Below, piece after piece: positions 33,157 through 43,921 of a stretch of 64,000 nt of DNA. A program made the translations under genes and the position numbers. The notes under the pieces are model-generated. The model made no database searches, was not told the origin of the DNA, and saw only the letters and a program-made list of their open reading frames with translations. Source of the stretch: Falsiroseomonas frigidaquae (GTDB taxonomy: Bacteria > Pseudomonadota > Alphaproteobacteria > Acetobacterales > Acetobacteraceae); contig NZ_JAAVTX010000004.1 of the NCBI RefSeq assembly GCF_012163145.1, positions 434,001 through 498,000 of the forward strand, written 5' to 3'. Position 1 is the stretch's first letter. Every line of letters starts with the position of its first letter.

Positions 33157-33228
33157 GCCGGGTTAGCACAGCGGTAGTGCAGCGGTTTTGTAAACCGAAG
33201 GTCGGGGGTTCGATCCCCTCACCCGGCA
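33157..33228 (+). tRNA. tRNA-Thr (TGT), island integration site
   Basis: A 72-nt tRNA with acceptor GCCGGGT/ACCCGGC, D arm GCAC/GTGC, anticodon loop TTTGTAA (anticodon TGT) and T loop TTCGATC. The CCA is not encoded. From base 33183 onward the sequence is also found at 43876-43921, so the island supplied a 3' half that keeps the tRNA intact. Confidence 0.95.
33183..33228 (+). repeat. Left attachment site (46-bp direct repeat)
   Basis: The repeat spans the 3' two-thirds of tRNA-Thr, from the anticodon stem to the discriminator base. It is identical to 43876-43921 over all 46 bases and diverges at once on both sides. tRNA anticodon-to-T-loop segments are the classic target of tyrosine recombinases. 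Confidence 0.93.
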
Positions 33229-33295
33229 ATCACTTAGCTGGAAATCGTTGCGATACAGGTCGGCAGCGGGCACTCAGCGGGCACATTGCCGATGG

Positions 33296-33682
33296 CTAGA
33301 GGCGCGGGCCGAACGACCATCGGCCCGTGAGGATCCAGCGGACAACGACAAGCGTTCCGCCTATCACAGCCGCATAGGCCAGCCGCTCGCCGGGGCGACC
33401 ATACGGCCGATCCAGCTCCGACCACGCAGCGGCGCAGAGAACGGCTAAAAGGGCGAGGTGCAGCCACCAGAAAACCGCGAAGGCCCTCGCGCAGATCGCC
33501 CTAGCCGAAGCCCGCCGCGCTTCGCGGAGGGCCGGACCTCGGTCGGCTAGCCGTCGCGCTGCCTCCGCGCTGGCGTCGGAAAGCCTGGATAGCCCGGCCG
33601 GCCCGGTGCCCGCCATACCGCGCGCGTCGCCGATAGCATCGCGCAGCTGTTCGTCCGTCATCTGGGCGTAGCGCAGCGTCAT
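33296..33682 (-). CDS. Hypothetical membrane protein of the island
   Basis: A 128-residue protein starting MTLRYAQMTDEQLRDAIGDA. It has an amphipathic N-terminal half rich in Ala and Arg, then two hydrophobic helices (AFAVFWWLHLALLAVLCAA and LAYAAVIGGTLVVVRWIL). The C-terminus is short and cytoplasmic. I do not recognise the family. It is the first gene inside the left border, about 70 bp from the attachment repeat, and points toward it. Confidence 0.6.
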   Translation of the reverse strand: MTLRYAQMTDEQLRDAIGDARGMAGTGPAGLSRLSDASAEAARRLADRGPALREARRASARAICARAFAVFWWLHLALLAVLCAAAWSELDRPYGRPGERLAYAAVIGGTLVVVRWILTGRWSFGPRL

Positions 33683-33772
33683 GGCTCGGGTGGCCCGCGT
33701 CGTTTCGCCACAGATTCTTCTGGTAAATCGTAGGTGGGTGCAAGGGCGGCTGCACGGCCCGTGGCCTCGCCC

Positions 33773-34021
33773 CTAGTCCAGTGCCCCGATCAGCACCACC
33801 CTTGCCCGCTCGGCCTCGGCCAGCGCTCGCCGCACGCCCTCCGGCCACCACTGGCCACCGCGCCGGGTCGGCACGCCTTCGCGGTTCAGCAGGGCCGCGG
33901 CCTCCCGCAGCGATCGCCGGCGCCGGCCCGTGCCTACGGCGTCCATCACAGGGGCCAAGCGTATGAGGGCGCTCGCGGCTTGGATGGTTTGGTGGAGGCG
34001 GCTGACATTGGGCAGGGGCAT
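33773..34021 (-). CDS. Small protein resembling the recombinase-domain motif of large serine recombinases
   Basis: An 82-residue basic protein. The segment LREAAALLNREGVPTRRGG followed by QWWPEGVRRAL is the kind found in the DNA-binding recombinase domain of serine recombinases, but no catalytic domain is attached. It may be a free-standing DNA-binding remnant or regulator. No clear ribosome site precedes the ATG. A decayed second copy lies at 37201-37390. Confidence 0.5.
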   Translation of the reverse strand: MPLPNVSRLHQTIQAASALIRLAPVMDAVGTGRRRRSLREAAALLNREGVPTRRGGQWWPEGVRRALAEAERARVVLIGALD

Positions 34022-34078
34022 GTGGGGCTAGGTCAGATTGGGCGCTGCTATTCTACATCTCTACATCGGCGGAAGCCT

Positions 34079-41303: not shown

Positions 41304-41406
41304 GGATGCCATTCCTCTCATCGCGGCGCGTGTCGCCGCGTGACAGGAGTGATTGAGCGGCCGGGTCCAATCACCCCCGGTGTTTTGACGGAATTCCGGG
41401 GTTGAC

Positions 41407-42246
41407 TTAGCGGCGCCAGAAAAATCGGATCGCTCGTTTGGTTTGCTCGATTCGCGGCGTGTCGAGTGCGGCAGGATGCGCGAGCGGCAAAAGCAATTTC
41501 ATGGAGTCGAGGAGTCGATCCTCCTGACCGATACGCTGGCGATCTGCTTCATCCAGGGTTCCGACGAGTGCCTTCACGACAATCTCGACCGAGGCCCGAT
41601 GGTCCGGAGTTAGAGCGGCCTTTGCGCGCCCCCACCGCTTCTGGTCCAGATGCACATTGCAAACCTTCAAGATAGCCAGCTCGATTTCGACGTAGCCCTG
41701 GGGAGGCTTCTCGTTCCGCAGGCCGATGCGGCTAAGCCGGTCCATTGCTGTTCCACGAGCATCGTCGTCCTGGGCGCGGGCGCGCGCGTGGAGAGTTTGG
41801 GCCATGGCCGACACCGCCATTACGACGTGAGATCGCGACGCGGGATCCAAGCGCCGGTGCGTCGCTGCGCCCACCGTCAGCAGCTTCGGCAGAGTGCTGC
41901 CGTCACCTAGCCGCCGGACGTTGTGTGCAAGGCTTGCGGCCGCCTTGGCACCGATCGCAGGTGCCAGCAGGTCGACGGCCATGCTCACGGCGCGGCGCGC
42001 TACTTCACCCTGTTCCTCGCCGCCTGCCGCGAGCGCGCCAGCGTCAAGCGGACCTTCGCCCCCCCGCCGGGCAACGGTCGCAAACGCGAGCTGCACCGCG
42101 TCTCGGCCGATCAGGTCGACTACCTCGCCGATCGCCCCCGCTAGCTTGGCAAGGATTTGCTCGGCTCCGGCGCGGCTATCTTGCGGCGCAGGTCCGTCAG
42201 TCGTTGCTGGTTCGGTCACTCGCGCCTTCTGCCGCGCGCTCTGCAT
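41407..42246 (-). CDS. Hypothetical island protein
   Basis: A 279-residue helical protein of unknown family. Features are an N-terminal charged part (AEQILAKLAGAIGEVVDLIG), a middle with SLAHNVRRLGDGSTLPKLL, and a C-terminal half with GYVEIELAILKVCNVHLDQK and RIEQTKRAIRFFWRR. There are no membrane spans. It is placed between the integrase and the AlpA-like gene, all reading leftward, so a regulatory or replication role within the element is possible. Confidence 0.6.
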   Translation of the reverse strand: MQSARQKARVTEPATTDGPAPQDSRAGAEQILAKLAGAIGEVVDLIGRDAVQLAFATVARRGGEGPLDAGALAAGGEEQGEVARRAVSMAVDLLAPAIGAKAAASLAHNVRRLGDGSTLPKLLTVGAATHRRLDPASRSHVVMAVSAMAQTLHARARAQDDDARGTAMDRLSRIGLRNEKPPQGYVEIELAILKVCNVHLDQKRWGRAKAALTPDHRASVEIVVKALVGTLDEADRQRIGQEDRLLDSMKLLLPLAHPAALDTPRIEQTKRAIRFFWRR

Positions 42247-42352
42247 CTGGAAGCGCGGGGCAGCCCGGTGCAGAGGTCCAGGCGTTCGGCGGCCAAACCT
42301 AGCCCCGCTGCGGAACGATATAGGTGCACCGCCTCGACGGTGCGAGCGTCAA

Positions 42353-43702
42353 CTAGGCGCGGCGCCGCTCGGCCAGGACGGCCACGTTGTCCAGCGCGCC
42401 CCTGCCCTCCCCGCACGCCTCCACATGCGCGGCCCATGCCGCGAGCGCGGCCTTTCGCTCCTCAAGGAATTCGCCGCGCTGGTAGATCGCGGCCACGCCG
42501 CGGATCGTGCCCTGCACGTGGTTCAGCAGCCGATCCGCGACGTGCGGCGGGAAGCCGGCGCCAGCCAGCCAGGTGACACCCGAGCGCCGGAAGTCGTGCA
42601 GCACCCAACCCGGCATGGGCTCGGGGGGCAACTGGCCGGCCTTCGCCGCGTCTTCCGCGCGTGCCTCGGCGATGGTCGAGTCTATCTCCCGCTTCACCCA
42701 TGAGTGCGTCGTGATCGGCCGCTTGTCGTCAATGCCGAACACCAGCCGGTCAGCCTTCGGCAATGCAGGCAGGGGCTTGCCGTCCTCGGCGCCGAGCAAT
42801 GCGCGCAGGATCGCCCGGGCCGGCTCTGCCAGATGCACGACATGCGCCTTGCCGTTCTTCGTCCGGGTGCCCGGCTGCGTCCAGGCGGATAGGTCGGGCG
42901 CCACTTCGCCCCAAGCCATCGCGGTGACTTCCTCGCGCCGTGCCAGGGTCAGCAGCGTGAAGCGGACCATCGGGCCGTAGGGCGCCGCCAGCGTGCCGGC
43001 CGCGCGCCAGACGTGCCCGACTTCCTCGGCACCCAGCACACGCTCCCGCGGCACGTCCCTGCCCGGCGCCGGGGCATGTTCCCAGGGGTTCGCCGCGCCC
43101 TCGGGCAGCGTGCCGCGGCGCAGTGCCCATGCCCACATCGCCCGGGCGTAGTCCCGGACCCGGCGCGCGGTCGTCTCGCCGGCCTCGGCAGCTTTGTCCA
43201 CCACGGCGGCGGCGTCACGCCGGCCGATCGCCATGGCCGGCCGGTCCGCGATTGGGCCGAGGTGAAGGCGTAGTCGCGACAGCACATCGCGTTGCGTCGC
43301 CGGCCGAAGCCCGGCCACGTGCTTCTCAGCGTAGAGGTCGACCAGGGACTTCACGGTGAACGCCGCTTCGGCCGCCCGCGCCGCCGCCGCAGCCTCCGCT
43401 TTTACCCGGGCCTCCTCCGCCGCCTCGCGTTCCGCCAAAGGGTCGCGGCCATCCCGTAGGATCCCGCGCAACCGTTCGGCCTTATCACGCGCCTTCGCGG
43501 TGGTGAGTTCGGCGCCAAACGTGCCCAGCACGGCCCGGCGGACACGAGGGCCGAAGCGGTAGTTGAACAGGAAGGTCCGGACACCGCTGGGCTGCACCCG
43601 AACCGTGAAGCCCCGAAGTTCAGAGTCCGTCACCCACAGGTCCTTCTTGCCAGCGGGGCAGGTTAGGGCTGCGACAGTCTTGTCCGTGAGCTTCTGAGGC
43701 AT
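42353..43702 (-). CDS. Site-specific tyrosine recombinase (phage integrase)
   Basis: A 449-residue integrase of the tRNA-targeting, P4-like type. The N-terminal domain (LTDKTVAALTCPAGKKDLWV, GFTVRVQPSGVRTF) is the DUF4102-like arm-binding part; the core-binding part is near 118-215. The catalytic set is complete: Arg255/256 in LTLARREE, His369-x-x-Arg372 in LHDFR, His395 in LLNHVQG and Tyr407 in IYQRG. The ATG at 43702 gives the conserved MPQKLTDKTV start. It stands about 170 bp inside the right attachment site. Confidence 0.95.
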   Translation of the reverse strand: MPQKLTDKTVAALTCPAGKKDLWVTDSELRGFTVRVQPSGVRTFLFNYRFGPRVRRAVLGTFGAELTTAKARDKAERLRGILRDGRDPLAEREAAEEARVKAEAAAAARAAEAAFTVKSLVDLYAEKHVAGLRPATQRDVLSRLRLHLGPIADRPAMAIGRRDAAAVVDKAAEAGETTARRVRDYARAMWAWALRRGTLPEGAANPWEHAPAPGRDVPRERVLGAEEVGHVWRAAGTLAAPYGPMVRFTLLTLARREEVTAMAWGEVAPDLSAWTQPGTRTKNGKAHVVHLAEPARAILRALLGAEDGKPLPALPKADRLVFGIDDKRPITTHSWVKREIDSTIAEARAEDAAKAGQLPPEPMPGWVLHDFRRSGVTWLAGAGFPPHVADRLLNHVQGTIRGVAAIYQRGEFLEERKAALAAWAAHVEACGEGRGALDNVAVLAERRRA

Positions 43703-43875
43703 GGCGGGCGGGCACCTTCGCGGGCACAGTGCGGGCACACTGACGAGGCAGCGTGTGGCGACCAGTGGCCGCTTGCTTCGGTTCGTAATGCCCTTCCCGG
43801 CCCAAAATCAAGCCATTTCGTGTGCCCGCGTCGACAAGTGGCGACCCGTCGCGGCGCATGGCGACTTGGCTTTTT

Positions 43876-43921
43876 CGGTTTTGTAAACCGAAGGTCGGGG
43901 GTTCGATCCCCTCACCCGGCA
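43876..43921 (+). repeat. Right attachment site (46-bp direct repeat)
   Basis: Identical to 33183-33228: the tRNA-Thr 3' part from the anticodon stem to the discriminator. The tRNA 5' part is missing here, so this copy is a remnant and not a gene. Beyond it ordinary chromosome resumes. Confidence 0.93.

Follow-up and report, generated by a model that had tools for sequence, protein, structure and literature searches.

A 64,000-nucleotide stretch of the Falsiroseomonas frigidaquae genome (contig NZ_JAAVTX010000004.1, positions 434,001 to 498,000; hereafter the window) contains a 10.7-kb island inserted at a tRNA-Thr(TGT) gene, the integration target, which is kept whole (33156–33229, plus strand; ARAGORN; Rfam RF00005, 67.1 bits). 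An earlier sequence-only reading of the window had drawn both borders at perfect 46-bp repeats of the 3′ part of this gene, and the repeats are indeed found in direct orientation on the plus strand, one at 33183–33228, overlapping the tRNA gene, and the other on the distal side at 43876–43921, with a spacing of 10693. Among 16 genomes of the genus, nine have the exact 46-mer, and only the genome of the window has it twice. That reading had also pointed to related genomes as a place to look for an empty tRNA-Thr(TGT) site. Two congeners (G002 and G003) provide it: they have the opgH-type glycosyltransferase, a single tRNA-Thr, tRNA-Tyr, and tRNA-Gly (G003 also tRNA-Trp) in the order of the window, minus the island. 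At least two congeners thus lack the 10.7 kb, which is not syntenic in all relatives. The three flanking proteins examined are of host type (DUF4394/PEP-CTERM, the glycosyltransferase, which we take to be opgH from its MdoG neighbor, and MdoG itself), and no prophage was seen beyond the repeats.

Ten open reading frames (ORFs) of the island were scanned against Pfam, PHROGs, NCBIfam, and PADLOC; smaller ORFs, such as 35043–35342, 35343–35516, 36790–36978, and 37639–37926, fall outside these scans. The core genes lie on the minus strand in the order Int-X-AlpA-Y-Prim/Rep from the distal end inward. The tyrosine integrase is encoded by a 461-codon ORF (42353–43738) and contains the Arm-DNA-bind_3, Phage_int_M, and Phage_integrase domains (Pfam matches PF13356, 3e-15; PF00589, 7e-08; PF22022, 2.2e-06; PHROG match phrog_1, 1.7e-48). 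Its start is likely the ATG at 43702, because the alignment with the relative in Siccirubricoccus phaeus (L090, see below) begins at residue 15. Gene X (41407–42246; 279 residues), which stands 106 nt from int and occupies the place between int and alpA, has no match in the four collections at the limits used. The AlpA-like regulator or excisionase (41079–41321) matches the phrog_66 excisionase family (1.9e-08), which upholds its earlier assignment even though its HTH_17 match is just under the cut-off (6.6e-06; 26.7 bits against 27); a weaker match links it to phrog_57 (small terminase, 2e-4). Gene Y (40610–40945; 111 residues) shares 4 nt with the start of the replication gene and has no meaningful family match. 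The replication protein itself (38559–40613; 684 residues) joins Prim-Pol, PriCT_2, and AAA_25 (RepA-type helicase) domains (PF13481, 1.7e-42; PF09250, 5.6e-14; PF08707, 2.6e-05). The integrase and the proposed fusion of prim-pol with RepA both exceed the Pfam cut-offs, and the motifs that we presume to be needed for catalysis are present in both proteins.

The remainder of the gene content also agrees with the initial description, in which structural phage, conjugation, and partition genes were absent and most other genes were unrecognized. No convincing virion, lysis, conjugation, or partition gene was found among the ten scanned ORFs, the phrog_57 match being weak; PADLOC returned weak matches only; and gene X, gene Y, and the scanned cargo ORFs have no family match over cut-off. 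Predicted structures were too poor for use, both for X (two rows, mean pLDDT [predicted local distance difference test] 38) and for a 266-residue cargo protein (one row, 44). Between int and X lies an int-alpA RNA (RF02996; 42240–42309, minus strand), which at 36.1 bits is just over the gathering threshold of 35.8. That such islands generally have this RNA was not supported: it was found here and at one further locus (L069), with no match at the gathering threshold in L062, L063, or L065–L068, nor in a looser search of L065, L068, and L110. The further locus, on contig C9 of the same genome, carries another integrase (47% identity) and, 4 kb from it, a strong int-alpA RNA (51.9 bits) upstream of an AlpA-like ORF (38%).

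A related core is present in a second genus of the family. A contig of 11,934 bases from Siccirubricoccus phaeus (genome G102; L088, identical to L090), a species placed by NCBI in Roseomonadaceae, Acetobacterales, encodes an integrase (71% identity), X (41%), AlpA (70%), and replicase (55–59%) in the same order, in line with the expectation that the gene order would recur in a related genome; gene Y was not identified there. A tRNA-Thr fragment (46 aligned positions, 91%) lies approximately 180 bases upstream of int, the whole tRNA gene being outside the contig, and the related integrase therefore probably uses the same site. A DUF4160/DUF2442 pair stands between int and X, and the cargo differs from that of the window, whose cargo ORFs have no tblastn match in this contig. 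The S. phaeus contig is also the sole solid relative of gene X: four of 299 family genomes match X at E ≤ 1e-3, including that of the window, and two of the matches are weak (3.8e-4 and 5.3e-4).

Islands of similar plan are spread more widely. We scanned 36 sources for a tRNA gene with a second partial copy, excluding shorter or tRNA-to-tRNA matches (L063, L112, and the tRNA-Ser of L062), and 15 of them, the window included, have repeats of 43–59 bp that span 6.8–14.6 kb. Aside from the window and an island at tRNA-Arg(ACG) in Paracoccus chinensis (L089), these are 13 siblings in 13 genomes from six genera of the window's family, at six other tRNAs: Arg(CCT) in five congeners, Glu(CTC), Thr(CGT), and Met(CAT) twice each, and Arg(CCG) and Phe(GAA) once each. 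The integrase is beside the distal repeat in all 13, and an AlpA-like protein was recognized in eight, by tblastn in L062, L065–L068, L107, and L110 and by an HTH_17 match just under the cut-off in L104. The order Int-X-AlpA-Y-Rep with AlpA identified by homology is found in the window, L068, L107, and L110; L101–L103 have at the AlpA position a small ORF without HTH_17 by Pfam. Only the window and S. phaeus sequences are related when eight X sequences are compared all against all. Replicase relatives at E ≤ 1e-30 occur in 34 of 299 family genomes and 23 of 102 genera, some via the Prim-Pol half only. The 75 accessory ORFs of 12 siblings match 17 Pfam families, including DUF3631, cytosine methylase, Vsr, SieB, HigB, and DUF5681, with no virion or conjugation family among them; the corresponding PHROG tally (25 of 37 families listed) leaves aside L104, five ORFs of which were scanned separately. 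This last island, at tRNA-Glu(CTC) (1919–16505; 14.6 kb), combines the int/AlpA/RepA module with a small terminase (4.8e-26), a head protease, and a tape measure protein. In one tRNA-Arg island (L067:8468–8665), three further 22-bp tRNA-Arg fragments with 88-bp spacing lie beside the att (attachment) repeat, an arrangement suggestive of att-site duplication or of stacked islands.

The ends of the island contain short repeats of the kind expected for arm-type integrase sites. A word search located two direct copies of GCGGGCAC inside the tRNA-side end (33266–33284, plus strand), and an array beside int (43708–43829) holds three direct copies (43708, 43720, and 43731) and one inverted copy (43822). 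A count of six for an octamer shared between the ends was reached by one of 4922 random pairs of host windows. Repeat arrays stand beside int in all seven islands read, the window included; in the other six the array lies between att and int and is made of other words, GAGTCCCC in L090 and GGGTCCGC in five tRNA-Arg islands. Three copies of another word, GTCGCCA, lie in the same 176 nt as the int-side array of the window; its form in the Arg islands is GCCGCCA, and it may be an AlpA site.

A candidate replication origin is located 3′ of the replication gene (38404–38485), where an imperfect palindrome (38457–38481) is accompanied by CGGATATCCG and CGGATAATCCG. All three copies of GGATATCC in the window fall within 38291–38480; at least three copies anywhere were obtained in three of 100 whole-window shuffles. 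Many islands have, directly 3′ of rep, a palindrome with the center CTW(1–4)G and arms that vary from island to island. From 29 loci we derived a rule (the best palindrome no more than 150 nt from the rep stop, with one strand of the center word), which was fixed in writing ahead of the scoring of the validation loci. Under this strict rule, 14 of the 29 discovery loci are positive, compared with 11 of 2817 control windows, and so are three of 19 validation loci (20 loci minus L154, which has no rep stop), compared with 14 of 1810 control windows, a background of 0.4–0.8%. A looser rule (any palindrome with a score of at least 7, both strands) gave 16/29 and 3/19, with 31/2799 and 13/1822 in the respective controls. 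Seven of the negative validation loci match only partially (six through the Prim-Pol half alone, L143 up to residue 432), and the three positives are among the other 12. The motif is thus enriched but far from general, with a lower rate in validation.

The iteron count covered 19 palindromes. Three are the validation hits, 15 come from the 16 discovery loci that are positive under the looser rule (L108 being left out), and L102 was added by hand although it failed the rule. Words were drawn from the arm on the left or from the 12 nt that flank it, a copy in this flank being counted, and the null followed the same procedure in the host DNA of the window only. For 17 of the 19, an arm or flank word recurs at least five times (null 5.1%), and 108 of 127 copies point towards the palindrome center (null 0.68). 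Two folded examples form hairpins beyond shuffled sequences (z = −6.4 and −7.6), with z = −3.1 for the window. A role of the palindromes as transcription terminators was considered and found no support: the terminator scan of the window lists none at this position, and no T-run is evident by eye beside the 19 palindromes. The repeat arrays beside int and the candidate origin 3′ of rep are new here.

P4-like satellites have an alpha-type replicase, Sid, and other P4 genes, and P4 itself targets a tRNA gene. The sequence-only reading had likened the island to this group, and in this respect it has to be revised: the ten scanned ORFs gave no match to a P4-named family in Pfam or PHROGs, neither Sid nor another P4 late-control gene was matched, and the replicase is of a different architecture, Prim-Pol with AAA_25. 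Membership in the P4 group was therefore rejected; what the island shares with it is a tyrosine integrase, an AlpA/Vis-like protein, its own replicase, and a tRNA target (P4-like elements are covered in part by PMC6092414). The broader proposal of a site-specific mobile island with a minimal gene kit held up, given the empty sites, the copy in a second genus beside the same tRNA fragment, and the sibling islands.

Phage-inducible chromosomal minimalist islands (PICMIs) of Vibrionaceae and the phage-inducible chromosomal islands (PICIs) of Gram-negative bacteria are a closer match than P4. According to PMC10803314, PICMI excision depends on int, iolg, and alpA, and replication depends on prim. 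Shared with that plan are int, a variable gene beside it, alpA, a primase, and few other genes, among them the genes between int and alpA (41407–42246) and between alpA and prim (40610–40945, the position of up1), which are usual but not universal in PICMIs as reported there; often a single gene precedes the primase, no capsid-remodeling genes are described, and one site with direct repeats is used. X, in the position of iolg/icg, likewise varies: the X genes are mutually unrelated, as iolg/icg fall in 13 families in the same report. The island differs in its site (tRNA-Thr rather than fis), in its primase (Prim-Pol/PriCT_2/AAA_25 rather than DUF3987/DUF5906), in the 106 nt that separate X from int (L068 has a 4-nt overlap of X with the int stop), and in the bacterial order of its host. 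The dedicated PICMI search model, as given in PMC10803314, combines int, AlpA, a primase with DUF3987 and DUF5906, and Fis, while in a broader first model fis is optional; the island has the integrase and AlpA-like protein of the dedicated model, with another primase type and another site.

Gram-negative PICIs are defined in PMC10111431 by int, alpA, and pri, the primase family including Prim-Pol, and the island has these genes on one strand and in that order. It also resembles them in its tRNA site, a type used by many PICIs (PMC6092414; PMC10111431), in the absence of structural or lytic genes among the ten ORFs, and in size (10.7 kb compared with about 15 kb; PMC6092414). PICI origins, as described in PMC6092414, lie directly 3′ of rep, the place of the candidate origin here, and have two sets of iterons around an AT-rich region, whereas those proposed here are centered on a palindrome with a CTW(1–4)G core and give a signal over many islands that is weak in the window itself; moreover, no terS or cos is known here, the tRNA fragment is undamaged, and some cargo ORFs are on the other strand. 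Islands of the I55 type, which are moved by a jumbo phage according to PMC12595487, similarly have int and alpA, direct repeats, cargo, and no transfer genes, but use a tmRNA (transfer-messenger RNA) site, are larger, and have AlpA at the other end. Capsid-forming PICIs have their own capsid, portal, and terminase. Such genes were not found among the ten ORFs of the island; by contrast, the Paracoccus element (L089:8471–19670; 11.2 kb) has a large terminase, a head protein, and a portal, together with a RepA helicase (35% to that of the window) and, by eye, a protease. Together with L094 it has the appearance of either a capsid-forming PICI or a small prophage, and its large terminase, head protein, and portal have no tblastn match in L104.

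On balance, we lean towards regarding the island as an integrative, satellite-type element whose core genes look intact and which is probably excised, replicated, and exported in the particles of a helper phage. The borders, the whole tRNA gene, the empty sites, the S. phaeus core, the 13 siblings, the arm arrays, and the origin-like palindromes are in favor, as is the island with a small terminase, head protease, and tape measure protein (L104). Phage-mediated transfer is our best guess because the Int-X-AlpA-Y-Prim order is the PICMI order, and that the island must parasitize a helper, as the sequence-only reading had it, is a reasonable inference. In such a cycle, the integrase would bind the arm-type repeats of the two ends, and the direction would be set by AlpA and perhaps by gene X; a signal that raises AlpA would lead to excision of the island as a circle; the Prim-Pol/AAA_25 protein would copy the circle from the palindrome and iteron region just 3′ of its gene; and the copies would leave in helper-phage particles, as PICMIs and Gram-negative PICIs do, the helper perhaps being virulent. 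The steps of excision, replication, and exit are modeled on the PICMI and PICI work (PMC10803314, PMC6092414, PMC10111431).

Several results weigh against this assignment. The host genome, 97.9% complete, has no terminase by phrog_2 or phrog_9 and no PF04860 portal, models that match in 11, 4, and 4 of 14 control genomes, respectively (phrog_9 also in three of 16 genus genomes), and two relaxases exceed the Pfam cut-off elsewhere in it (G000:C6:8425–8823 and G000:C2:58238–58603; L115 and L116). No convincing small terminase is present among the ten scanned ORFs, and no packaging signal turned up in the island, where cos and pac were not searched for. The island DNA has no match in phage or plasmid collections, and gene X has no relative in the viral contigs, phages, or plasmids searched. 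Two cargo ORFs are on the plus strand, their status as genes being unproven, whereas Gram-negative PICIs are unidirectional and the core genes here are transcribed one way. The origin of the window is itself weak, with an imperfect palindrome and three iteron copies compared with at least five in 17 of 19 loci, and the origin rule gives a negative result for the S. phaeus contig, as measured from the stop of the first of the two replicase frames. In S. phaeus, moreover, X is interrupted by an in-frame stop and the replicase match extends over two reading frames; decay of this copy or errors in the assembly may be the reason.

The two relaxase genes, which may belong to conjugative elements, bear on a different route. 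With no terminase or portal found in the host genome, the helper could be either an infecting phage or a conjugative element, and the island might be an integrative mobilizable element that, once excised as a circle, is carried by a conjugative element via a small oriT, without a relaxase of its own. We regard this as rather unlikely: neither a relaxase nor a type IV secretion system, as in integrative and conjugative or mobilizable elements, is present among the ten scanned ORFs, no relaxase is among the 17 Pfam families of the siblings, the module order is that of phage satellites, and two relatives (L104 and L089) carry phage packaging or virion genes. To a similarly low degree we credit an island that integrates and replicates with no dedicated route between cells and spreads by accident, through generalized transduction or natural uptake. 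It would fit the lack of a recognized transfer function in the scanned ORFs and a cargo zone with a decayed duplicate and low coding scores; siblings spread over six genera and six other tRNAs suggest repeated transfer instead, and the island-specific origin words and arm sites persist.

Descent from a prophage that lost its late genes is very improbable. The AAA_25 part of the replicase does match 1011 phage records, with 27–36% identity in the 15 listed (Roseobacter, Rhizobium, and Caulobacter phages, and others), which speaks for such a remnant; yet the core genes are open, the two att repeats are perfect, a similar compact plan recurs in the 13 siblings, the scanned ORFs of the island include no late-gene fragments over threshold, and no complete prophage sharing its core and borders was seen. 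The replicase also has relatives in two viral contigs (L093 and L094) and in 26 plasmid records. In none of the plasmid records does the best place reach 60% identity, and in one it covers at least 80%; all but one of the 26 are predicted to be non-mobilizable. The integrase has no confirmed match among the viral contigs searched.

Taken as a satellite-type element, the island belongs to a varied group that is built like known phage parasites and is a variant of the known PICI/PICMI plan, here extended to bacteria for which no satellite report turned up in searches of the open-license literature (Acetobacteraceae, Roseomonas, Alphaproteobacteria). More tentatively, it may represent an undescribed lineage of minimal phage satellites across the family of Siccirubricoccus (Acetobacterales), in which a constant Int-X-AlpA-Y-Prim/Rep chassis switches tRNA targets, with an arm word, a dyad-symmetric CTW(1–4)G origin with another word, and X genes that are unrelated to one another yet keep a fixed position; its helpers would be largely virulent phages, so that many carriers hold none. 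The att and arm layout with a distinct word for different integrases and the clonable origin motif are the testable parts, and L104, with its terminase and head and tail genes, may show how satellites gain packaging.

The left 5 kb of the island (33296–38305) appears to be exchangeable cargo. Its ORFs are 38009–38305, 34266–35114, 33773–34021, and 33296–33682 on the minus strand and 37639–37926 and 35905–36705 (266 residues) on the plus strand; the zone has low coding scores, none of the scanned cargo ORFs (37639–37926 is not among them) has a match over cut-off, and none of the plasmids searched contains 35905–36705. The ORF at 33773–34021 (82 residues) is recombinase-like, with weak matches to Recombinase (PF07508, 0.0086) and phrog_95 (4.4e-4); at E ≤ 1e-3 it has matches in 23 of 398 family genomes, its own included, the others being weak (best 2.3e-6). 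A decayed second copy of its region lies at 37203–37362 (minus strand; pieces of 74–92% identity). A run of 17 C at 34079–34095 is a possible slippage site or weak point of the assembly. In a congener, the tRNA-Glu island (L073:1270–3083) seems, by eye from translations, to carry the cytosine methylase and Vsr endonuclease recorded by Pfam for the sibling ORFs. The IMG/VR contig L093 (1860–9986) has the replicase nearest to that of the window (67%) beside another integrase and an AlpA-like ORF, together with a relative of the 82-residue recombinase-like ORF (58%) and, by eye, an ATPase-like gene; it is perhaps an island filed as a virus.

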